A stretch of 64,000 nt of DNA, taken from contig MU129056.1 of NCBI GenBank assembly GCA_014904985.1, positions 83,889 to 147,888 on the forward strand, in the 5' to 3' direction. Source of the DNA: Hydnum rufescens UP504 (taxonomy: Eukaryota; Basidiomycota; Agaricomycetes; Cantharellales; Hydnaceae). Shown here one piece after another: positions 5,081 through 60,132 of this stretch (the stretch's first letter is position 1; each line of letters opens with the position of its first letter). The translations under genes and the position numbers were made by a program. The notes beneath the pieces were generated by a model. That model made no database searches. It saw only the letters and a list, made by a program, of their open reading frames with translations, and had not been told where the DNA came from.

Positions 5081-5300
5081 TTATACTGCCAGGTTGAGTA
5101 CTTGTCCTGGTTTTTCGGGGTGTGAATGATGAAAGTCCATTACTGCTTTGTGAGCATTGGCGAGTTCTGCTGCTGGGAGCCAGCCAAACTCATCATTGGT
5201 GTGCTCATAGCCGGACCATCATACACAATAGACTAAGCCATTACCGCGATGGCAACGATCGATCTTGCTGTTGATGATTTCAGCAATTTTGTATTCAAGT
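5081..5300 (-). pseudogene. chromodomain at the end of Pol
   Basis: After the integrase C-terminal region (Pro-rich PPPPPVEIDSELEYKIAEI), the frame reads a chromodomain: hydrophobic strand LVYCV, a TGA where a basic residue is expected, WSGYE, then TNDEFGWLPAAEL, and a tail HPEKPG ending at the TAA at 5081-5083. This places the element among the chromoviruses, whose integrase chromodomain binds histone marks and steers insertion. The stop at 5219-5221 removes the domain from the protein. Confidence 0.9.
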
Positions 5301-6643
5301 TCACTGTCGATTTCGACAGGTGGGGGGGGTGGTTGGGTGCAATTGGGGAAGGGATTGGGGTGAACTGGCTTGAGTAGTCGCACATGGAAGATGTTGTGGA
5401 TTTGATTCATGGCACGAGGAAGACCAAGGTGATACGCATGAGTTGAAACTTTCTTGGTGACTGGGAAGGGACCAAGTTTCTTGTGGTCAAGTTTCTTCGA
5501 TGGTCGCTTTGTCTTGATATTGCATGTGTTGAGCCACACTTGATTGCCGATATTGAGGGTGGGGAAAGGGGGTCACAATCCAGCTACTTGCTGTTCGTTT
5601 TGTTGTCATGTGATTCCAAGTTGGTCATGAATGTAATTGTGTACATCGCGAAGGTCAAGCACGGCTTGGTTGGCTTCGGTCAAAGGCACTGCTTTGATAT
5701 TGATCTCGAGGTTGGGGTGAAAGCCTTTATTCGCGAAGAAGGGTGTCATGTTTGTCGCAGAGTGCTCGGCATTGTTGTATGTGAACTCTGCGAGGGGGAG
5801 AAGTAGTGCCCAGTTGTCTTGCAGGTAGTCGACATAAATTCACAAGTACTGCTCGAGGATTTGGTTCAGGCACTCAGTTTGGCCATCAGTCTCAGGGTGA
5901 TACGCAGTCAAGAGGTTGAGTTTGATGCTGAGCCTCTTCACAAGTGATTTCCAGAAGTTGGAAATGAACAGTGAGCTGCGATCTGAGATGATGTTGGCAG
6001 GTGTACTGTGCTTGGATATGACCCAATTGATGACTAGGTCGGCGAGTCCTTCTGCAGGGAGTGTCGTGACTGTGGGGATGAAGAGACCCATCTTCGTGAA
6101 TCGGTCGATGATAACAAGGATGGAGTTGAATGAGGAGGAGGGTGGGAGTCTGGTGATGAAGTCCATCATTATTGAGTTCCAGGGTCGCTCAGCAATGGAG
6201 AGGAATTTGAGGGGGCTGTATGCGGTGTGGTGTGAGGATTTCATGTGAGTGCATATGACACAAGATCATACATATGCCTTGACCATTTTTGTCAGTCCTG
6301 GCCAGTAGTATTTTCGTGTGATGAGTCGGATGGTCTTGTGAATGCCCAGGTGGCCTATGAGGAGGTGGTCATGTGAAGTGCAAAGAATGTTGAGGCAGAG
6401 ATCATGATAGTCAGGGATGTAGACACGCCCTTTGTGTAGTAGCAATGTCACATCCTCTGAGAGTGAGAAGAAGGTGGGGGGGGGGGCTGTCGAGTCACCT
6501 TTGGTGGTCTTGATGCATTCATGAACTTGCATTGTGAGGGTGTCATCATGAGTGCCTTCACAAATTAGTGTGAGAGTCATCTTGGAGTCGAGAGGGTGGT
6601 CATCGAGGGTAGCTTGTAAGTACGCACTAAGAGCTGTGTCCAA
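5219..6643 (-). pseudogene. integrase region of Pol (decayed)
   Basis: In order on the minus strand: an HHCC-type zinc-binding segment (HLLIGHLGIHKT…, then a TGA at 6266 within the segment, then CVIC); the rve core with D in MDFITRLP, D in IISDRSS and E in ETDGQTECLNQ, so the DDE triad is still readable; and a GPY/F-like segment (KKLGPFPVTKK) at about 5440-5500. In-frame TGAs lie at 6266 and 5840, with another near 5566. All are explained by CGA to TGA. The core functions in joining element cDNA to host DNA. Confidence 0.95.
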
Positions 6644-7195
6644 GTCAAGGGGTTTGGTGTTGCAAATGATTGTTTGAAGGTTTTGCAGGTTTGCAGTTGC
6701 ATATACCTCGTTTCGTTCAGGTGGATAAACGTTGGGGCATCTTGTGAGTGCATCTGGCTTTCCTCCCAGTCATCCTGGTCAATATACAATGATGTAGTCG
6801 AACGAGGAGAGGTATTCCAACCATCGAGCCTGTTGATGAGTGAGGAGTTTCATGGAGGTGAAATACTCCAAGTTTTTGTGGTCCATAATGATGGAGACCA
6901 TGTGAGTGGCACCTTCAAGGTACGCTTGCCATGTGCAAAAGGCATCGAAGATCGCGAGAAGTTCTTTGTCATGGATGTCATAGTTCAGTTCTGTGTTTTG
7001 CATTGATCGCAAGTGGAACGCAATGGGTTGAACTTCATTGTTCTTGTCAATTTGTGACAAGATTGTGGCAATGGCATAGTTGGATGCATCAGTCTCTATG
7101 ATGATGCATAATTCGGGGTCAAAGTGGCAGAGGATGGGGGCTGAGACAAAGGCGTTTTTGATGCTTTGAAAGCTCATTGGGTCTCGTTGTTCCAT
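6644..7195 (-). pseudogene. RNase H domain of Pol (decayed)
   Basis: The frame reads ETDASNYAIATILSQ, then NYDIHDKELLAI, then IMDHKNLEYF and ARWLEYLSSFDY, the usual RT-associated RNase H order, ending in the linker LGGKPDALTR. Catalytic-type Asp and Glu positions remain. Two TGAs (6779 and 6770) interrupt the segment after IVY and PG, where Arg is normal. A 1-nt deletion near 7180 separates this frame from the reverse transcriptase. Confidence 0.93.
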
Positions 7196-8397
7196 GTGAA
7201 AGTTTCATCTTTTTTTGTAAGATGGATTAGGGGGTGTGTGAGGTCTGAGTAGGTTGTGATGAAGCGGCAATAGACATTTGCGAAGCCTAGGAATGACTGG
7301 ACTTCTCTCACTGAGGTAGGTGTGGGCCAACTTAGGATTGCATCAAATTTTGTAGGGTCCATTTGGACACCTGAGGGGGTGATGATGAAGCCAAGGTACT
7401 TGATAGTGTCTGTGTGGAAGGTACACTTCGAGATCTTGGCGCGGAGGTTCCTTTTGCAGAGTTGTTGCAGTACACAGCGGATGTGCTTGCGGTGTTCTTC
7501 ACGCAAGTTGGAGAAAATGAGTATGTCATTGAGATATATGATGACAAACAGGTCCACCATATCCTGAAACAATTCGTTCATGAAATACTGGAACTGCACC
7601 GGGGAGTTGGCTGCTCCCATTGGCATTACGAGCCACTCATAAGCACTGTACTGTGTACGAAATGATGTGAGCCACTCGTGTCCTTCAGCAACTCTGATGT
7701 TGTAGTAGCCATCGCAAAGATTGATTTTGGTATAGATCGTGGTGCTGTGAAGGTGATTGAGGAGGTCATTGATGAGGGGGATGGGGTAGCAACTCTTTTT
7801 CATGATGCGATTGAGTGCTCAATAATCAATGCAAAGGTGAAGCCTGCCACCTTTCTTTTTTGTGAAGAGGATTGGCGCACCTGCGGGGGAGGTCAAGGGG
7901 CGTATGAATCCTTTTGCCAGGAATTCATTGATGAACTCGCATAGTGCTGCAAGTTCACTTTCCAACATTGGATATATGGGACCTTGTGGTACTTCACACC
8001 CTTCTTCAATATTGAATCGAAGGTCATACTTGCAATGTGGTGGTAGATAGCTGGCCACTGTACTGGTGAAGACGTCATGGAATTCGTGGTATTCTGGGGG
8101 GAGTCATTGTGTGAGGTCTTGGCATTCCTCAATGGGGATTGATTCAGGTAATGCAGAGATGGAGGGAGTGTCGCAAACCACTGATGTGGTCCGTGCATGG
8201 GTTGGATTGGTGACAACACATGTGAAGAGTGTCGTGTCATCCTCGCTAGCTGCTTGGATGAAGTCTTCTGCCTCATAGACTTTGATCATGATGCTGTGAG
8301 CTGGAGGGCTCGTGGTTGTTGGCTCTGGGGTCAAGGCAGTCATTGCGATGACATTGATGCTTAGTGGCATTGTTACAAGTTCTGAGTGGTGCGCCAT
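7174..8397 (-). pseudogene. reverse transcriptase domain of Pol (catalytic residues lost)
   Basis: Contains the connection from protease (EECQDLTQ, TGA, LPPEYHEFHDVF), the fingers segment (KGFIRPLTSPAGAPILFTKKKGG, LCIDY, then a TGA at 7819) and the palm. The motif A aspartate is Asn (TKINLCDGYYNI) and the YxDD box reads YLND (IIYLNDILIF), so two of the three catalytic aspartates are gone. Each change is a G-to-A at a former CpG (ATCGAT to ATCAAT; CTCGAT to CTCAAT). The remaining hallmarks (LGFIITPSGVQMDP, SFLGFANVYCRFI) are well kept. The protein could not polymerise. Confidence 0.96.
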
Positions 8398-8406
8398 ATG
8401 CTCGAT

Positions 8407-8949
8407 TCACATTTCAGCCCACAAGATTTGTGGATTGACTTGTTGCAACCAGGGGAGTCCCAGTATGATGGGAGTCGAGGAGTGGAGTTGCGATTCAATG
8501 AACTTGATACTTTGTTGCAACAAGTTTGCAAAAGTGACCGGGAGTGTAACTATACACTCGAGGTTGTTTGCAATTGATCTGTTGAATAATCGCAAGGGGT
8601 GTGGTGTTGCCAATCGACAACGATGTGGTGCGGCATGTGAGTTCTGTACTTGTGATGCATCAATGAAGTTCTCTGAGGCACTGCAGTCGACGAGTGCCAA
8701 GATGGGACTATCTGAGAGGAGGGGGATTGAGACCATCGTGATGAATGACAATGGGGAGAGGGAAGAGATGGTAGCTCTTAGATGAGTGGTTCCATCGGAG
8801 GGGGATGATGATGAGATCTCAGTGATGTGAGGTTCCTCTGATGTACTGGGGCCTCCTGAGAAGGTGAACATAGTGCGAGCTACTGGGGTGTGCAACATTG
8901 CTGTCACCGTTGTGCTGCTGGTGCTGCTGGTCATCGCAGCAGGTGTCAT
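8407..8949 (-). pseudogene. aspartic protease domain of Pol (active-site Gly lost)
   Basis: A Ser/Thr-rich linker is followed by LALVDCSASENFID, the single-motif retropepsin site. The consensus D-[STC]-G-A reads D-C-S-A here: Gly is Ser through GGT to AGT at a CpG. The downstream flap-like LGLPWLQQVNP box is present. The stop at 8407-8409 is TGA (EM-stop-IEHM). Confidence 0.85.
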
Positions 8950-10400
8950 GGAGGTTTGCGGTGCATTGCGACGATTGGGGCAACTATCTACTGCATGGTC
9001 GCTATTCCTGCAGTATGCGCAGAGTTTTTCATGTTTTCATTGCTCCTTTTCCTCTTCAGTGAGCATGCATTTAGACCTGTGAACTTTCGGGTTGCACAGG
9101 GGGTTTGTTGAGGATGAAGGGGATGTCAAGGATGAGGGGTTCACAGTGCAAGGTTGTGTGCCGCGATCTGAGGCTCTCATGGCTTTGAGTTCTTCTTGGC
9201 ATTCCCAATACCAGCCATTGAATCTTAGCGCGGCTTGGTACATGCCTTGGAGTTTTGTGGGTTTGCTGTCTCGTGAGATGTTGTCTTGGAGATGGTTCAG
9301 TAGTTGTTGTTCATCTTGAGTGCACATAGTTTTCACTCTTGAGTCGCGACTTCATCCGGGTCTCTGAAGTATGTGTGGAGCTCTTCCTTGAAGAGCATCC
9401 AGCTGGAGAGTGTGGGGGATTCCTCCGTCTCCATGATGAGGCATTGGAACCATTGCCTTGCCATGTCTGTGAGATACGATCTGGCCCAGATGATATGCGC
9501 ACTTTCCAGCATGAATTGCAACGGTTGTGATCGGAATGCCATTTTGCAATGTGCCAGGAATCTGTAAAGTTTAGAGGAGTCGTGCCCCGAGAACATCTCC
9601 GGCTCTTTGATGTTGGGTTCGCGAAGTGCTTGTCCCAAGGGCATGGAGGGGTGGGCGATTGTCACTGGTTCGTGATATTGTGGGGTGGTGGGAAGGTGTT
9701 TGAGTCTGGCTCGATGATCTACACCTGGAGTTGGGGCTCTGAAGGCTGAGCCCAGGCATGGGGGGGTGGAGTGTGCGTCCTCAAACATTGCGCATTGTGG
9801 AGTTGGTTGCATGATGTTGCCAGGTGGTGCGTATGTGACTGAATTGCCTCATGGTGTATCGTCAAGGTTTTGAGGTGGAAACTCATCGATTTCCTCAGGG
9901 TGGGTTTGGGGCTTGAAGTGGGTGCTTTGAGTGTCAAGGGTGCATGGTTCAAATTGCAAGCTGCATGCCGCAGGTGAGACTACTTGTCTCAGTCATGTGT
10001 TTGCATTGAGGGTGGGTGACCATAAATTGTGGTGCATGACTTCGTTTCACAGTTCTCGATTTTCGTTCACAAGTTCTTCAAGGCGAGCATTCATCTGGGT
10101 GTTGGTGCGTGCCATTTCTGCTTGTATCTGCATGCTGCATGCTAGGTCTGCCTGCATTTGTTGGAGCATGCACAGGAGCATTGTCTCAGTGCTTGAAGTT
10201 GATGTGGCGCTGGGAGGGTTTCCCATGTGCGGGCCTTGTGTCGAGTTGGGTGGTGTTTGTATCATGGGATACGTCATCCACGGGGTGATTGGCACCTCGA
10301 GGACGATTGGAGAGGAGAGGCCAGAGGTGGATTCGATGGTGGCTGTGTCATCGCAGTACTCATTGGCAACTGGTTGTGGATTTCGTCAAGTGGAGGGCAT
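8950..10400 (-). pseudogene. Gag region with CCHC zinc knuckle (decayed)
   Basis: The likely start is ATG at 10398-10400 (MPST…). A helical segment rich in Gln/Met/Asn (MLQQMQADLACSMQIQAEM…LVNENREL) is followed by a Pro-rich linker, the retrotransposon Gag core (IKEPEMFSGHDSSKLYRFL, then MARQWFQCLI) and the knuckle CAYCRNSDHAVDSC (CX2CX4HX4C) at about 8975-9020. The frame is broken by TGAs at 10386, 10047, 9993, 9849 and 9037 and by a 1-nt deletion near 9343. Gag forms the particle and binds element RNA. Confidence 0.92.
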
Positions 10401-53425: not shown

Positions 53426-55477
53426 TTGTGTGTCATCTACACTTTTTAACACCCCATGTTTGCCAGCACTAACAAAGGTTCTGCACCATGGCCCACCTAT
53501 TTGTGTCCCATTCTACTCATGCTTCACTGCCCGGAATTGTGCCAGTAATCCAAAATGAACTCAACTGTAAAATGATTGATTCGTCAACAAACAAGTTCTA
53601 CTCCCTCCGCATTGTCTTCCCAGATCTCTGCCAATTCTTCTTCATCTACTCTTCATCCCAAACGACAGTGTTCCAAATATCCAATCGCTGAAGTTGTAGG
53701 CTCAGGGCCAAATGGAGTAATTACTACACTGTCAAACCAGCAGACATCCAATCTTCCTGCCGTCAAAGTGACTGAGCGATCAACATTTATTGAATCCCAC
53801 CACTTAGACATCAATTTCGAGCCGGAAATGGCACCTGAGGCCAATGTATGTGTTGTCCAAGACAAACTATCTCGTCATGCATGGTGGAAACACGCACAGG
53901 CTTGTTGGTGGGGTGACGATGTCCTCCCATCACTGATTCGTCCTTTTATGAGGTTTCAAAGAGAACAGAACACTGGGGCCCAGGTTGATTCCATAGAACC
54001 CTGTATGTGTTCACAGCGTCATCACATACTGAAGATCGTTTGTGTGCATATGGAATATTTGGAGGACATTGATTTGGTTGTTTGCTCTCGTCGCCCTGCA
54101 GCAATCCAGCTTGTGAGCCAGGGATTGTTCCCATGCTCTCCATTGGCTCCGACTTTGGCTGTGAGCATGGATATGTTGGAGTTTGTATCAGATCTCTTTG
54201 TAAATATGGCACCTAATGAATGAGCCTGGGCAGCAACCCTTACGAAATATCTAAAGGCTCATGGCCATGAATTTGCAACTGGGGATTCCCTTTGTCGACA
54301 ATTTGCCAACGCTCTTGCCCACTATCAAGTTCTTGTTAGACTGGTGAAGGCAGAGATGACAAAATCATCAATTCTTTTTGTGAATCATTGAACTCCACTC
54401 TGTCCTCTGATCGCCCTCCTACCCCTGCACTCGATGAAAAAACCTCGATCCCAGCTCGAGTATATCTGAATGCACACAATTTCACCGGGCCTACTAAAGT
54501 TGATGGTGCCCTGGAGTGTCCAAGTGCATACTTGCAATCACGCTGTGCTCTTTGCTTCGGAGGGAGGCATGTGGCTGATCTTCAGGCCACTGTCATTGTT
54601 TGCATAGATGCAAACTTTCAACTCAAATGCAACCATGACAAAGACTGGAGAAAAGGCTTTGAGGGTCAGACAGGTGCCCGGGACCCAGAGATATTCTCTC
54701 CAAGGGCAGTTGAGCTTCTGCAGGCAGACCTTGATGATATGGCTGCCAGGATCAATGAGGTTCGACCAACAAAGAGTCCAGCTGGAGCAGGCAGGAAGCG
54801 AAAGGCAGATGAGTTGGTGGAGGATGATAGAAACGGGCCATGCGATGATGATTCCATTGAACCAGGAATGAATATTCCAAATTCTGTTCTTGACACCTGC
54901 GGTGACTCATTCATTGCAGCTGACGGTGATCGCATCAAGGCTTCCACTCAGCGCTTTGATGACACAGGGCTAATGGCTATGCTATGTCGGCATGATAGTC
55001 CAATATACATTGCCAATAGGCTATTGCACGGGGTCCCCGTGGGGGAATTTAGGACATCCCGCCCCGCGGGGTTGAAAACCCGCCCCCGTGACTCACGGGG
55101 GTAGAAGCCGCGGGATACATGACGGGGTTGAAAAACCCAAGGAGAACCCGCGGGAAACCCACAGGACAATATCCTCATCCTATTCTGTATATGGCCCATA
55201 GTAAGAGGCCAGAAGATTATTTAACATTTATTTATTTATTTATTATAATTATATACAATATAAGTCAGATTTCACATGGGGGCCTTGGCCATGTTCTCAT
55301 CGGGTGAGTTTTCATGCAAGGAGGGGCAACAGGATGTGTGGCTCCAAGGATAGGGTGGCATTCGCGTGGGTTTTGATCGGGTGTTCATATCGGGTTGCAG
55401 GTGGCTGCGCAGGTCCGTGTTTCGCCTTGGACCTTGGCTCTGTTCTTGTCGTGGGGTTTCATAGATCGAGAGGACAC

Positions 55478-56522
55478 CTAGAATGATTAAGAATACATTA
55501 GTTTTAGAAAAAACAGAAGTAGTGCCCAAAGAGCAGCTACTGCTGCTCTTTGGGCACTGTTGAACTTACAACTATTACCACACACCCGCCGCAGCGGGTG
55601 TGTGGTATGAGATTAAGTCCATTGTCGTGTTCAAGACTCAGGGCTTGGGCGGCTGCGCATCGAATTTTGTGTTGAGGGCTCGTGCATGTCGTTGTTGGGC
55701 GGGTTTTCGCTTAGGGAAGGGACCTAGAACAATGATAAATAATATGAGTAAAAAAAAGAAAACAGAGGGGTGCCAAAAGAGCAGCTCCTGCTGCTCTTTT
55801 GGCACCGGTGGGATTAGACATACCTGATGTCACCACACACCCGCCGAAGCGGGTGTGTGGGTGCTGTATCTGATTTGTCATCGTGTTATAGCTCGCTGAT
55901 ACTCGGGGGTTGGGGGCTGGGTGGCTGCGTGCTCCATATTTTGCCATAGGCATTGTCTCTGCTTTGATTGGGGCGGGGTTTCGGGGAGGGAGAAAGAGCC
56001 TAAAATAGTGGATACGTTAGCAAAAAAAATAATACAAGCAATGCCAAAAGAGCAGCTGGTGCTGCTCTTTTGGCGTCGTGGTACACCCCATGAAGAAAAT
56101 ACTCACCTAATATTGCCACACACCCGCTTCAGCGGGTGTGTGGCACCGTATTTGAGGCCTCGTTTTATTGGTGGCGGATAGTCGATCATTGGGGTCTCGC
56201 GTGGCTGCGCGCACTCGCATATTTCGCCCTGGTAATCGTCATCGTCAGTTCTGGCAGGTGCTGGTGCGGGATTCGTGCGGGTCTGTCGATTGAGTGTGAC
56301 CTAGAATAATAAATACATTAGTAAAGAATGAAAAACAATACACTTACCTACACCCCCGCCACAGCGGGTGTGTGGTGCCTCCTCTTTTCTGGTATCATCG
56401 TCGTCGGTTCTGGCGGGTGCTGGTGGGGGGTTCGTGTGGGTCTGTCGATCGAGCGCGATGCGATGACCTAGAATAATAAATACATTAGTAAAAAAAGAAA
56501 AAAAAACATACAGTAAGTTTAC
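55478..56522 (-). other. left arm: five intron-like segments in a minus-strand module series
   Basis: GT…AG segments on the minus strand: 56468-56522, 56301-56347, 56000-56106, 55724-55823 and 55478-55569. Donors are GTAAAC, GTAAGT, GTGAGT, GTATGT and GTAAGT. Acceptors are TTCTAG or TTTTAG, usually preceded by CTAAT/CTAAC about 15 nt upstream. The last three contain palindrome A. Exon-like segments between them stay open in a phase for long stretches. They share the motif [18 protein letters not shown] (56.38-56.46 and 56.22-56.30 kb) and end in palindrome B. Splicing is inferred from signals only. Confidence 0.6.
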
Positions 56523-57770
56523 TGAGGCACCCAGGAATTTGGGCCCCACATGTGAATCCATGCCAATGGCATTGGAAGCCTCATTGATATTAGCACCCGT
56601 GGCTTCACAAATGGCCGAAAGTGCATTAATCGAGGAGATTCTCCATTAGTGGAGAAGAAGAGGTTGCGACCGCGAGCTTGGCGGACAATGTCCTCCCGAC
56701 CAGGCTCGTAGATAGGAACGTTGTAATCAGGTGAATTCCATGCATCAATACGTGCCTGGTTGAAGTCAACTTTCCTTGGTCTTGATATTGGCATTTGCCG
56801 GCATCGAAAGTCGTTCTACAACCACCAAGGGATCGAACGACAGAAAAGCAGGACCACATACCTGCTGCGGCGGGTGTGTGGTCATACGAGGTAAGTATTT
56901 ATCCTTTACATACATCCACGCAAAAAGAGCAGCAATGGCTGCTCTTTTTGCGTTGGTTTTAAATTTTAACTGACATTATCCTAGGTCATCGCCTGAACCA
57001 GAACCGGCAAATGAACACCCCCCCAAACAACAATCCGCAGAATGAGAACATGCCAAATGGCAGTTTTCAAGACAATAACCCACCAAACGATGATCTGCTG
57101 AACGAGTACCACACACCCGCCACGGCGGGTGTGTGGTAACATAGGTAACTTTTCGTTTGATTGCAATACCTATGGTGGCGCAAAAAGAGCAGCGAAAGCT
57201 GCTCTTTTGCGCCGTTATTATTATTATTCTTAACTAACATATTACTTTATGATAGGTCTCCCCATCATCCACACGAGCCCCGAGCAAACACCTGACCCAA
57301 TGCCCACACTGCGGCACCCCACAAAACGAACACCCACCTGGTAAATGAAAACCCCCAAACAAAAAGGAATACCACACACCCGCTGCGGCAGGTGTGCGGT
57401 ACTATATAAGGTGAGTTCCCCCCCCTCGGTAGATACACCCGCACAAAAAGAGTGAAAGCGGTTCTTTTTGTGCCGGTTTTACAACTTAAGCAACTAACAT
57501 TTTTCTTTTTAAACTGTAGATGTTCCTAATCCGCGCGAGACCACGGTATCATCCCCGGCCCCCGTGAATCGATTCGAACGAAACCCCATGCGACCCCCAT
57601 ACGAAAAAACCAGACACGAGCCCATATGGACCCCTCGATTGACACGAGCAGCACAATACGAGTACCACACCTGCTAGAGCGGGTGTGGTACTACAAGGTT
57701 TTTTTTTAAATTAATTCTGTATATGTAAGTGGCGCAAATAGGGCAGTGCAAGCTGCCCTTTTTGCGTCAC
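55521..57770. repeat. palindrome family A (seven copies)
   Basis: Copies at 55521-55558, 55769-55806, 56041-56076, 56918-56953, 57177-57213, 57441-57473 and 57729-57770. Stems of 11-17 bp follow the pattern GCCAAAAGAGCAGC / GCTGCTCTTTTGGC with 4-nt or slightly larger loops that differ between copies (TACT, TCCT, TGGT, AATG, GAAA). Stem variants change on both sides together (CCCAAAG/CTTTGGG, CCAAAAG/CTTTTGG, GGGCAG/CTGCCC). Each lies within an intron-like segment. Confidence 0.9.
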
Positions 57771-57924
57771 TTTTGACTTATTCTAGATCATCCGACTGAC
57801 ACCACCCACTGAACCCCCTGCACCTGTGAGACCCCCATATGAAAAACCGGGCACGAGCCCGTACAGACCCCGCCGTCGAAATAAAACGAGGTACCACACA
57901 CCCACTGGGGCGGGTGTGTGGTAC
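55576..57924. repeat. palindrome family B (nine copies)
   Basis: Copies at 55576-55607, 55831-55863, 56115-56144, 56351-56373, 56852-56883, 57107-57138, 57370-57401, 57661-57692 and 57891-57924. The stem is TACCACACACCCGC / GCGGGTGTGTGGTA with a 4-nt variable loop (CGCA, CGAA, TTCA, CACA, TGCG, CACG, TGCG, TAGA and a larger one). Each marks the end of an exon-like segment. Spacing between neighbours is 230-290 bp within each arm. Confidence 0.92.
56519..56794 (-). CDS. central ORF of the hAT-like element
   Basis: 91 codons: [20 protein letters not shown], then an acidic/Arg segment, ending [10 protein letters not shown]. It lies at the orientation switch and would be the first exon of the minus-strand series. 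A plus-strand frame (56776-56890, ending PHTCCGGCVVIR at a GTAAGT) overlaps its start, giving a head-to-head pair. No transposase motif or known domain is seen. Confidence 0.4.
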
Positions 57925-57974
57925 TAGAATGTATGTTTCATTTTTCAATCTGATGTATATATCTTTGATCCTAG
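56891..57974 (+). other. right arm: five intron-like segments in a plus-strand module series
   Basis: GT…AG segments on the plus strand: 56891-56984, 57145-57255, 57411-57519, 57698-57786 (weak donor GTTTTT) and 57931-57974. Branch-like CTGAC/CTAAC and CTAG/GTAG acceptors are visible. The first four carry palindrome A. Exon-like segments are Asn/Pro/Arg-rich (NQNRQMNTPPNNNPQNEN; RPPYEK repeated at about 57.59 and 57.83 kb) and end in palindrome B, read here as YHTPxxAGVW. Stops within some modules mean that either they are not all coding or the module borders differ. Confidence 0.6.
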
Positions 57975-60132
57975 ATCATGCGACAGAGACCGCCCAAGTC
58001 CCGAATGAACAACCAACCGAACCCTCAACAATGAAAACCCGTACTAGAACCTCCCCCCCCCTGAACAACCAACCACATCCTGAGCTCCCTGAGCCCCTAC
58101 TGCTATACAATGTATATATAATAGTAAATAGTGATAAATAATGACATAGTTATGGTAACAGTAAGTTACTGCACCAGAGGTAAAATATTAGCTAGTAACT
58201 TAGCAGTTCTGGTGCAATACAATTGCACCATACCATGTTAGATGACTATCAATCTATGGCATGGACTGATTCAAACCCTTGGTACATATTGCCGGGGTTG
58301 GCGGGTTCTTGGCGGGTTTTAGCCATGGGTCCACATTGTTACTCCCACCCCGCGGGGATCTCCCCCGCAGGGTCAAAACCTGTGGGTTTCAAAACCCCAT
58401 GCAATACCCTAATTGCCAATATGTGTACTGCTGGTGAAAAACAGTTCTATGCCTTTGCTCTGATCTCGGCACTCCTCAAAGATCTACCTAAGGATTGGAC
58501 AGTTGGGCTGTTGTATGATATTGCATGTCAAATCCATCGTAGTCTCCTTAAGTGGAACATCATGCCTGAATGGATGGGACAGATTGAGTTTGGTGTCTCT
58601 GTTTTCCATGCTTACGGCCATCAATGGACTTGCCAACTGTGGTATCACCCCCAGAAGTCAGAAAAATGGGTCTGTCTGATGGTGAGGGGTGTGAGAGGTT
58701 CTGGAGTGAGCTCAGACAACTTATTCCTGGTCTAAGGGTCACTGGTGTATGTACATTCACTTGCTAAGCTAAGTTGACGAGATAGACTGATGGTCAATCT
58801 CTTCCTAGTACCATCGCCATCTCTTCATAATTGATCTTCAAGTTGAGCATATAGATGAGCTCAAGCAAGAGGGTGCAGGGAAATGGCTCTGTGATCATGT
58901 GTTGCGCACTGTAGGATGTGAGGCTCAGGCTCAGGAGAAACTGGATGGGCCTCAGTCCAGTATCTCTTGGGCCAGTTCAAGGAACAGTGCTCTTTTCAAA
59001 GCAGACTAGTCCCTTGCCAGTCAAAGACAAAGGGATCCCGTGCGATAGAACACATCCTGTCTATGTCCCAGTCTGCAGACTCACTCCGGGTGCATCTGAA
59101 GGAACTTATGGACGAGCTTGCAGGTCTTGCAACTGATAATGTGACAATTGCAGTGGAGGATGAGCTACGGTTGAAGATTACAGAGATACGGGCTAGTGTG
59201 CAGCACCTTGAGAGTAATATTTCAAGAAAGACCCAGGAACTTCATCTCTCAGATCAGAAGTCCCACAAGGAGTTGGAGCGGTTAAAGACCAACAAGTGGA
59301 TAAACCTCCAGCTGAATGTCCAGGTTGTGAGGGACCAGCTCCTGATGAAGCTTCGCGCATGTAAATTTGAGCTTGCTGGGCTGGAGTGTGCTGACACAAG
59401 TCGCCAGCTGGATCACAAGACTAAGGAGCATGTGGAGAAGGCAATGAAGGGTCAAGTCTCTGGGATTCAAGCAACACTGAAGCGATATGAGGATATCCGA
59501 CAGCAGATGATGAAACTTAGAGGAAAAGGGAATGTTGCAAGGGATGCATATATTCCTCCAGAAATTTCATCATCTGTTTATAAGTTGGATGTGGATGAAG
59601 ATATTTGGCAAGTGCCTCATCATGAGGACATGGCAAATTTTCCAGATGGGAGGGTCCCTGCTTGGCTTGCAGACAAAGAAGTCTGTGAGGGCATCCAACA
59701 TGCCCAGGAGCTGGCAAACTGCAAAGAGGAGCTTAGGCGCTGCAAAGCTGAACTCTCCAATCTATGTTGCTGGTTCACAAAGCAGTATGCTGCTACCCAG
59801 CATGCCTTTGATTTTTGCAATGGTAGGGGTTCCTTCCACCTTGACTGAATGTAAACTAACAACTCTGGGGATGTGGACAGATGAAGATGTCAAATTCTTT
59901 GTCTTAATGGAGTTACATCACTTGCATGACCTGGTCAAAAACTGGAAACATCACACAGCAGGACTTCTTGGTAGGGATGGGTGGGTGGACTGGGAAACAT
60001 TCCAGACCAACTGCCTCCATTACAGAGGGCATGGGTCTGCTGAAAGGTAGAGCCCAGGCTGAGGAAGTTTTATCACCTGGGGAAGAAGAGGCTGAAAGAG
60101 CAAGTTCTGATGATGATGAAAATGGGGAGTAA

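Follow-up and report, generated by a model that had tools for sequence, protein, structure and literature searches.

The locus considered here raises the question of what kind of element carries, between the ends of a transposon, two divergent arrays of palindromes interleaved with splice signals, and what such arrays could do for it. It lies in the window, as we call the whole analysed stretch of 64,000 nucleotides of Hydnum rufescens UP504 DNA. The element is of hAT type, 3,395 bp long (55017..58411), and is bordered by the following features.

55009..55016, no strand: left TSD ATTGCCAA, 8 bp, exact match to the right TSD
55017..55033, plus strand: left TIR TAGGCTATTGCACGGGG, 17 bp
58395..58411, minus strand: right TIR TAGGGTATTGCATGGGG, 17 bp
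58412..58419, no strand: right TSD ATTGCCAA, 8 bp, exact match to the left TSD

The hAT superfamily of DNA transposons is exemplified by Ac. The window element shares with it the 8-bp TSD and the short TIR starting with TAGG; a Dimer_Tnp_hAT match was obtained in a same-ended element. The TSD and the TIRs, which agree at 15 of 17 bases, are of hAT type and support the hAT-like character that an earlier note on this DNA had assigned to it. Unlike in hAT transposons, its interior consists of two divergent arrays of splice-signal modules, and no transposase was found in the window copy. The element interrupts a KDZ transposase domain, with the break at position 88 of the Pfam KDZ profile. Both TIRs were located in 19 of 28 loci scanned for ends, and exact 8-bp TSDs flank 10 of these 19, the window copy among them; seven of the ten belong to 11 near-full copies. 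Identity of the near-full copies (n = 10) is 93-96%, and C-to-T and G-to-A changes account for 737 of the 870 substitutions in recent copies. Silenced DNA would be expected to decay in this way; the recent copies were thus not protected by their arrays.

Up to 56.52 kb the modules run on the minus strand, and from 56.85 kb onwards on the plus strand. A typical module opens with a stretch rich in C and A that has palindrome B at its end. Next come a donor, for which a start 9 nt past B is the commonest, and a T-rich stretch usually holding palindrome A, before a branch point and acceptor close the module. The two arms are composed as follows.

55478..56522, minus strand: left module arm, with four B and three A palindromes
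55579-55604, 55834-55859, 56117-56142, 56349-56374: left-arm B palindromes
55524-55555, 55772-55803, 56043-56074: left-arm A palindromes
56468..56522, minus strand: predicted intron L0, 55 nt, without A; begins where a captured host-gene piece ends
56301..56347, minus strand: predicted intron L1, 47 nt, without A
56000..56106, minus strand: predicted intron L2, 107 nt, with A
55724..55823, minus strand: predicted intron L3, 100 nt, with A
55478..55569, minus strand: predicted intron L4, 92 nt, with A
56782..56808, no strand: core motif C, here TTGATATTGGCATTTGCCGGCATCGAA, heading the right arm
56855..57974, plus strand: right module arm, with five B and four A palindromes
56855-56880, 57110-57135, 57373-57398, 57664-57689, 57895-57920: right-arm B palindromes
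56920-56951, 57180-57211, 57441-57473 (degenerate), 57734-57765: right-arm A palindromes
56891..56984, plus strand: predicted intron R1, 94 nt, with A
57145..57255, plus strand: predicted intron R2, 111 nt, with A
57411..57519, plus strand: predicted intron R3, 109 nt, with degenerate A
57698..57786, plus strand: predicted intron R4, 89 nt, with A; weak donor GTTTTT
57931..57974, plus strand: predicted intron R5, 44 nt, without A

The earlier description of nine B and seven A palindromes, oppositely orientated in the two halves, thus holds, with six A clear and the seventh (57441-57473) degenerate. Successive B palindromes are spaced by 231-291 bp inside the arms and by 506 bp over the centre. 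All seven A fall inside predicted introns and all nine B stand directly before a predicted donor, in agreement with the head-to-head exon/intron modules proposed earlier; nine of the ten predicted introns start with GTA or GTG, R4 being the exception.

The same arrangement recurs in a larger set of 225 modules, many of them from near-identical copies, and in its non-redundant subset (n = 75). A donor lies no more than 30 nt from B, on the side facing A, in 159/225 modules and on the opposite side in 3/225 (52/75 and 2/75 in the non-redundant subset), with a strong donor absent in 66/225. Branch point and acceptor follow A in 187/225 modules, compared with 20 in antisense and 63 in shuffled sequences; the non-redundant values are 63/75 against 9/75, and the commonest branch motif, ACTAAT or ACTAAC, accounts for 37 of the 63. 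T content rises from 18% in predicted exons to 46% in the intron stretches beside A. Judged from these signals, RNA copied from the arms would likely be spliced many times. Single sites do vary: when the left arm was compared with that of four relatives, none of the four had intron L1, three that belong to a single subfamily had lost the donor of L3, and L017 showed a gap at one acceptor.

Both palindromes are abundant in the 63-Mb genome. A scan allowing up to two mismatches found 4,387 B sites and 6,031 A sites, with none of either for the reversed-pattern control. The exact B half-stem is followed by GTAAGT at 442 positions, compared with 3 for the reversed site, which contradicts the view of the palindromes as independent insertions without relation to splice sites, a case that the earlier note had named among those that would refute it. 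Of 28 loci that had been selected for similarity, 26 have arms running first on the minus and then on the plus strand, as do 4 of 6 further loci. The number of modules differs between elements, a point that the earlier note had proposed to check; the multiplication of modules, suggested there, is supported and proceeds by tandem duplication. Similar modules are present in elements with ends other than those of the window element, which is therefore not alone in having such an array. Around the arrays of four loci (L022, L023, L024 and L026), a search for TSDs found none.

PF05699 (Dimer_Tnp_hAT) scored above cut-off on contig C68, between TIRs of the window element's family. The C68 element lacks a matching TSD, and five transposase frames from it, taken singly, gave no Pfam match; in appearance it was a candidate for an autonomous hAT element with its native array. 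Besides it, good matches to the transposase are located on C1, C151, C16, C235, C111 and C7, and five of these six were read. A second transposase copy, on C1, starts 0.8 kb from a TIR of the same family. Three transposase loci (L037-L039) show no hairpins in the 3.3-3.5 kb read, L036 has an array in the opposite direction, and L040 has a divergent array downstream that looks nested; a plain downstream array as at C68 occurs in none of the five other copies read. Neither the hAT transposase in a same-ended element nor the modules with other ends figured in the earlier note.

The reading that we prefer, and to which we give about an even chance of being right, is that the window element belongs to the hAT type, is apparently non-autonomous and carries two module arrays that diverge from the centre, do not code for protein and are predicted to be spliced. 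Transcripts starting near the centre would be spliced at every module. The A and B hairpins, flanking the donor, would help to define each small exon. Folding of A would remove at least 32 nt from introns of 89-111 nt, leaving them with an effective length closer to the 44-55 nt seen in modules without A. A hAT transposase, for example from the C68 element, may move the window element in trans. Least certain is the benefit under selection, which would be escape from silencing: the RNA might pass as well-spliced host RNA and avoid the stalled-splicing silencing that meets transposons in Cryptococcus, where, as summarised in PMC6643885, stalled spliceosomes and RNAi act against transposons and poorly spliced transcripts trigger siRNA. 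This pathway offers by analogy a possible reason why a transposon could gain from efficient splicing. A bolder claim, which we put forward as possible but rather unlikely, is that the arrays represent a new kind of genomic parasite: divergent self-contained splice cassettes with exonic and intronic hairpin tags, borrowing the ends of several transposon families, present in thousands of units and using multiple splicing as a host-RNA disguise.

The palindromes could also act as DNA, forming arrays of binding sites for a symmetric protein, either transposase or host factor, with the splice-like signals a relic of the source gene. In the cores of A (GAGCAGC/GCTGCTC) and of B not just the pairing but the sequence itself shows little variation, as would suit a protein site, and the long arms of Galileo are reported, in the summary of PMC3688188, to carry tandem transposase-binding sites. 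On the side of the preferred reading, pairing in register amounts to 81.8% for A (25 thinned stems) and 79.7% for B (40), against at most 57.5% with stems slid by 1-3, and changes on both sides of the stem number 41 in A (shuffle mean 16) and 53 in B (shuffle mean 31). The ratio of G-U to A-C pairs, 59:47 in A and 141:112 in B, shows only a weak form of the G-U excess expected under selection on RNA, which is compatible with the DNA reading; wobble asymmetry was for this reason dropped as a test of RNA-level selection. Two modules fold strongly (z of -9.1 and -7.2), which favours the preferred reading. In both of them, however, a short third helix forms between B and A and takes up part of the donor, which the hairpins therefore do not just keep accessible, another point on the side of DNA sites. 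Against them speaks the fixed order of donor, branch point and acceptor beside the hairpins, kept although modules are mostly only 60-75% alike, as a relic should have lost its signals. Similar arrays with different ends would moreover hardly be served by one transposase. We consider this explanation doubtful.

Another alternative regards the arms as host transcripts for small structured RNAs, with throw-away exons and one A hairpin released per intron, much like snoRNA host genes. Exons that look non-coding, a single conserved-core hairpin in most introns and the strong folding of two modules would fit. It appears improbable, since an Rfam search of 55000-58430 gave no match, the stems of only 14-16 bp are short for Dicer, and the exonic B, conserved equally, would be left unexplained.

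Less probable still is that the modules are introners, single hairpin-bearing introns inserting in host genes and later trapped in a transposon. Intron-like relatives with GT...AG ends do exist in thousands of copies, but all six further B sites read, a small sample with two taken from a donor-requiring list, lie within arrays laid out in the same manner, and a solitary intron in a coding gene was not among them; together with the origin of modules by tandem duplication, this gives no sign of the intron-spreading device that the earlier note had considered. For the module-multiplying gene also suggested there, no sign of protein coding was found, and a repetitive protein encoded by the exons is nearly refuted and was rejected: an open frame occurs in 60/123 predicted exons against 41 in shuffles, some exon starts being misplaced, but the antisense is open in 79/123, exon lengths have no common phase, and indels between subfamilies (7, 1, 8 and 2 nt) are not multiples of three while exons diverge as much as introns, so the exons look non-coding.

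Several known systems resemble the predicted-spliced arrays in part. Foldback-like elements and Galileo (PMC3573991, PMC3688188) have two long inverted arms of tandem repeats, as has the window element, whose modules are homologous between the arms; unlike those, as abstracted, the units here are about 250 bp long, carry splice signals in a set order and combine two families of palindrome. Module identity between arms averages 0.63-0.70 in 11 loci, compared with 0.55-0.58 after shuffling, a likeness too low for one arm to fold back on the other. Introners and introner-like elements share the many related GT...AG introns, and some of their families carry TSDs and TIRs of DNA transposons (PMC9860276, PMC8469720); in these summaries they sit singly in host genes, unlike the introns of the window type, which are arrayed with exons inside a transposon. 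Among top matches in the open-licence literature, no description of such hairpin/splice-module arrays was found.

The cassettes show a way in which exon/intron-like arrays can arise outside coding genes, through tandem duplication. Should the arms be spliced, they would offer related short introns by the thousand as a natural library, varying in hairpin, donor distance and branch site, with which the role of RNA structure in splice-site choice and the definition of small exons could be addressed. Splicing would then look selected on a transposon and not on a host gene, the protection of transposons from silencing by introns would become testable, and multiple splicing of array RNA could help the element to spread unnoticed.

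The centre of the element, between the arms, holds a captured piece of host gene that the earlier note did not mention.

56521..56641, minus strand: captured piece of a UDP-glucose 6-dehydrogenase gene, 93% identical to donor L029 544-664
56644..56770, minus strand: second captured piece of the UDP-glucose 6-dehydrogenase gene, 93% identical to donor L029 1237-1363

As in Pack-TYPE transposons, summarised in PMC8903248, a host-gene fragment with internal deletions thus lies between TIRs; the difference is that here one gene fragment is the cargo, and the arms are the part common to a wider family. The internal deletion amounts to 572 bp of the donor, absent between the two pieces, and the cargo has been shortened differently between subfamilies.

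The interior of the element studied here carries modules, typically an exon-like stretch ending in palindrome B and followed by a predicted donor, a T-rich stretch that usually holds palindrome A, a branch point and an acceptor. The modules are arranged in two arms that diverge from a common centre:

55017-58411: hAT-type element, 3,395 bp, with TIR and TSD
55478-56522, minus strand: left arm
56855-57974, plus strand: right arm

The TIRs are identical at 15 of 17 bases and the 8-bp duplication ATTGCCAA is present on both sides; judged by its TSD and TIR, the element belongs to the hAT superfamily. It is inserted into a KDZ transposase-like gene, with Pfam KDZ positions 2-88 in the left flanking frame and 88-175 in the right. 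An earlier note had described an element with an 8-bp TSD, nine B and seven A palindromes, B ending exons, A lying in GT...AG stretches, and splice polarity turning from the minus strand on the left to the plus strand on the right. All of this was seen again: one A is degenerate, all seven A lie within predicted GT...AG stretches, all nine B stand immediately upstream of a predicted donor, and the predicted polarity is minus in the left half and plus in the right. Predicted introns with A (seven of ten) measure 89-111 nt, those without it (three of ten) 44-55 nt. The KDZ genes, together with short introns whose branch points are of the ACTAAC type, probably point to a fungal genome. To our knowledge, the interior fits no known class, and no description matching it was found among the best matches in open-licence literature.

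The coupling of palindromes to splice signals was followed in 225 modules with clear A-B orientation, many of them from near-identical copies. Within 30 nt of B, 159 modules have a strong donor towards A and 3 have one on the opposite side; 104 of the 159 A-side donors start 9 nt past B. Downstream of A, a branch point and then an acceptor occur in 187 modules, against 20 in antisense and 63 after shuffling. When reduced to 75 non-redundant modules, the set gives 52 versus 2 for the donor and 63 versus 9 for branch point plus acceptor. Genome-wide, GCGGGTGTGTGG has GTAAGT 3-14 nt downstream at 442 sites and ACTTAC at 3. Part of this polarity goes back to a shared ancestral module. The sequence from B to donor is highly variable, and modules of one arm mostly share only 60-75% identity (shuffled modules 55-58%), so the splice signals were retained while much else changed. 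A strong donor is absent from 66 of the 225 modules. In the left arm, the donor of predicted intron L3 is lost in three relatives, all of one subfamily, none of the four relatives compared has intron L1, and a gap falls in one acceptor at locus L017.

We give about even weight to the reading that transcription of this apparently non-autonomous element runs from the centre along both arms and that the RNA is spliced, as predicted, at each module in turn. The exon end would be kept structured by hairpin B to within about 9 nt of the donor; folding of hairpin A would shorten the working intron length by at least 32 nt. Thanks to the hairpins, a long C/A-rich non-coding transcript could go through many splicing events with no skipping. 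What the element gains, as a guess, may be evasion of silencing triggered by stalled spliceosomes, a process described for Cryptococcus (PMC6643885, in extract).

According to the main rival explanation, which we regard as possible though rather unlikely, the palindromes act as DNA and are bound by a symmetric protein; the arm repeats of Galileo, which are sites for its transposase, present a parallel (PMC3688188, in extract). The predicted folds of two modules greatly exceed those of their shuffles in stability (z -9.1 and -7.2). In both, part of the donor is paired in a third helix, a short one that forms between B and A, which argues against the simple idea that both hairpins keep it open; a recheck of the folds took a little weight from outward splicing and from the bolder reading given below, and added a little to DNA sites. 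Stem pairing itself is conserved. It amounts to 81.8% in register for A (25 thinned stems) and 79.7% for B (40 thinned stems), falling to at most 57.5% and 56.4%, respectively, when slid by 1-3 bases. The outer stem of A alternates in register between C-G and A-T, and between G-C and A-T, and its inner core varies little. Changes on both sides of a stem number 41 in A (shuffle mean 16, maximum 26) and 53 in B (mean 31, maximum 47), counts that module relatedness weakens. The excess of G-U over A-C, an expected pointer to RNA, is small, so the conserved pairing may serve either as RNA or as DNA.

Protein-coding exons were rejected: open frames in 123 predicted exons, some with misplaced starts, number 60 in sense, 79 in antisense and 41 in shuffles, exon indels relative to the window subfamily are not in triplets (7, 1, 8 and 2 nt in three elements of one subfamily; 7, 1, 1, 8 and 2 nt at L017), and exon divergence (0.11-0.14) equals that of introns (0.12-0.14). 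The remainder of the compared stretch is more divergent (0.19-0.21), so both exons and introns may be under some constraint, or homogenised.

With up to two mismatches, the genome holds 4,387 B and 6,031 A sites, and reversed-pattern controls gave none. Minus-strand modules are followed by plus-strand modules in 26 of 28 loci (the window copy and loci picked by similarity to the window), and seven loci of this set additionally show a convergent junction with an adjoining array. Six further B sites from outside the set, four from the list of B matches and two from the donor-requiring list, all sit in A/B arrays, which speaks against palindromes as insertions unrelated to splice sites, a case raised in the earlier note. 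Over the 3 kb read at each, the layout is divergent at four sites, plus only at one and minus only at one; no TIR pair of the element's family was seen at any of the six, single weak matches apart. The similar loci L022-L024 have common but quite different ends, GTTACTAAGRATATATCATC, found at 14 genome sites with at most one mismatch, and the arrays of L040 and L042 end at GGGGCCCC-rich sequence, which at L040 adjoins a hAT transposase remnant. Given these other ends, the arrays seem not bound to a single transposon family. A bolder and doubtful reading would make them an undescribed genomic parasite, divergent hairpin-tagged splice cassettes borrowing the ends of several families. Another array, L043, has open frames in common with the centre of L022.

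Whole-element search found at least ten other near-full copies with 93-96% identity, and many partial relatives among the matches listed. Both TIRs are present in 19 of the 28 loci scanned, and the exact 8-bp duplication in 10 of those 19, among them 7 of the 11 near-full copies; at L018 the flanking octamers carry two adjacent mismatches, the pattern expected from decay of one CpG. C-to-T and G-to-A make up 737 of 870 changes among the 11 near-full copies, which thus decayed after insertion. At L004, L006, L008 and L009 the element has further module arrays no more than about 1.5 kb away, so arrays cluster. L011 and L014 are composites that have two centres, or arms set back to back, and apparently arose by recombination between copies.

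A candidate transposase source lies on contig C68, where a Pfam Dimer_Tnp_hAT match scoring above cut-off falls within a 6.0-kb stretch between TIRs of the element's family; five other frames of the gene had no match in Pfam. Downstream of the transposase frames, and in the same direction, follows a module array. The octamers flanking this stretch differ from each other, so the copy may be recombinant. On contig C1, a second transposase copy starts 0.8 kb from a TIR of the family. This hAT transposase family is the likely mobiliser of elements with such ends, and may or may not have carried the array from the start. Among five other transposase copies, no hairpins occur in the stretch read at three, the array of a fourth runs in the opposite direction, and the fifth has a divergent downstream array, apparently nested.

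Modules multiply by tandem duplication, as indicated by identity of adjacent modules reaching 0.93 in L028 and 0.87 in L034. Two pieces of a host gene for UDP-glucose 6-dehydrogenase (donor coordinates 544-664 and 1237-1363) are found in the centre of the window copy; they share 93% identity with the gene on contig C35. The diverged loci L047-L050 have nearly the same outer points and another internal deletion (544-614 and 1191 to 1359-1361); L017 carries donor 544-691, and its right-hand piece was not found within the 500 bp compared. A single capture, later shortened separately, would be the simplest account. The palindromic core motif GGCAATTGCC (at most one mismatch) is present in the centre of 19 of 31 loci whose centre is divergent; of its 37 matches, 23 fall in centres, which account for 27 of 253 kb. 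Frequently located at the arm head, it may, as a guess, mark the start of transcription. At the array head of L044 it stands beside a microsatellite, at that of L045 beside a long inverted-repeat sequence.

Elsewhere in the window, a 203-bp palindromic MITE (1522-1724) has the same TIR as the element, TAGGCTATTGCATGGGG, with a single mismatch in the copy at the opposite end, and is flanked by an 8-bp duplication of its own, GTCCTGTC. Positions 138-747 are a short tandem repeat with THES-rich open frames on both strands, and the minus strand of 5219-10385 holds open frames of what we take to be a degenerate Ty3-type retrotransposon.
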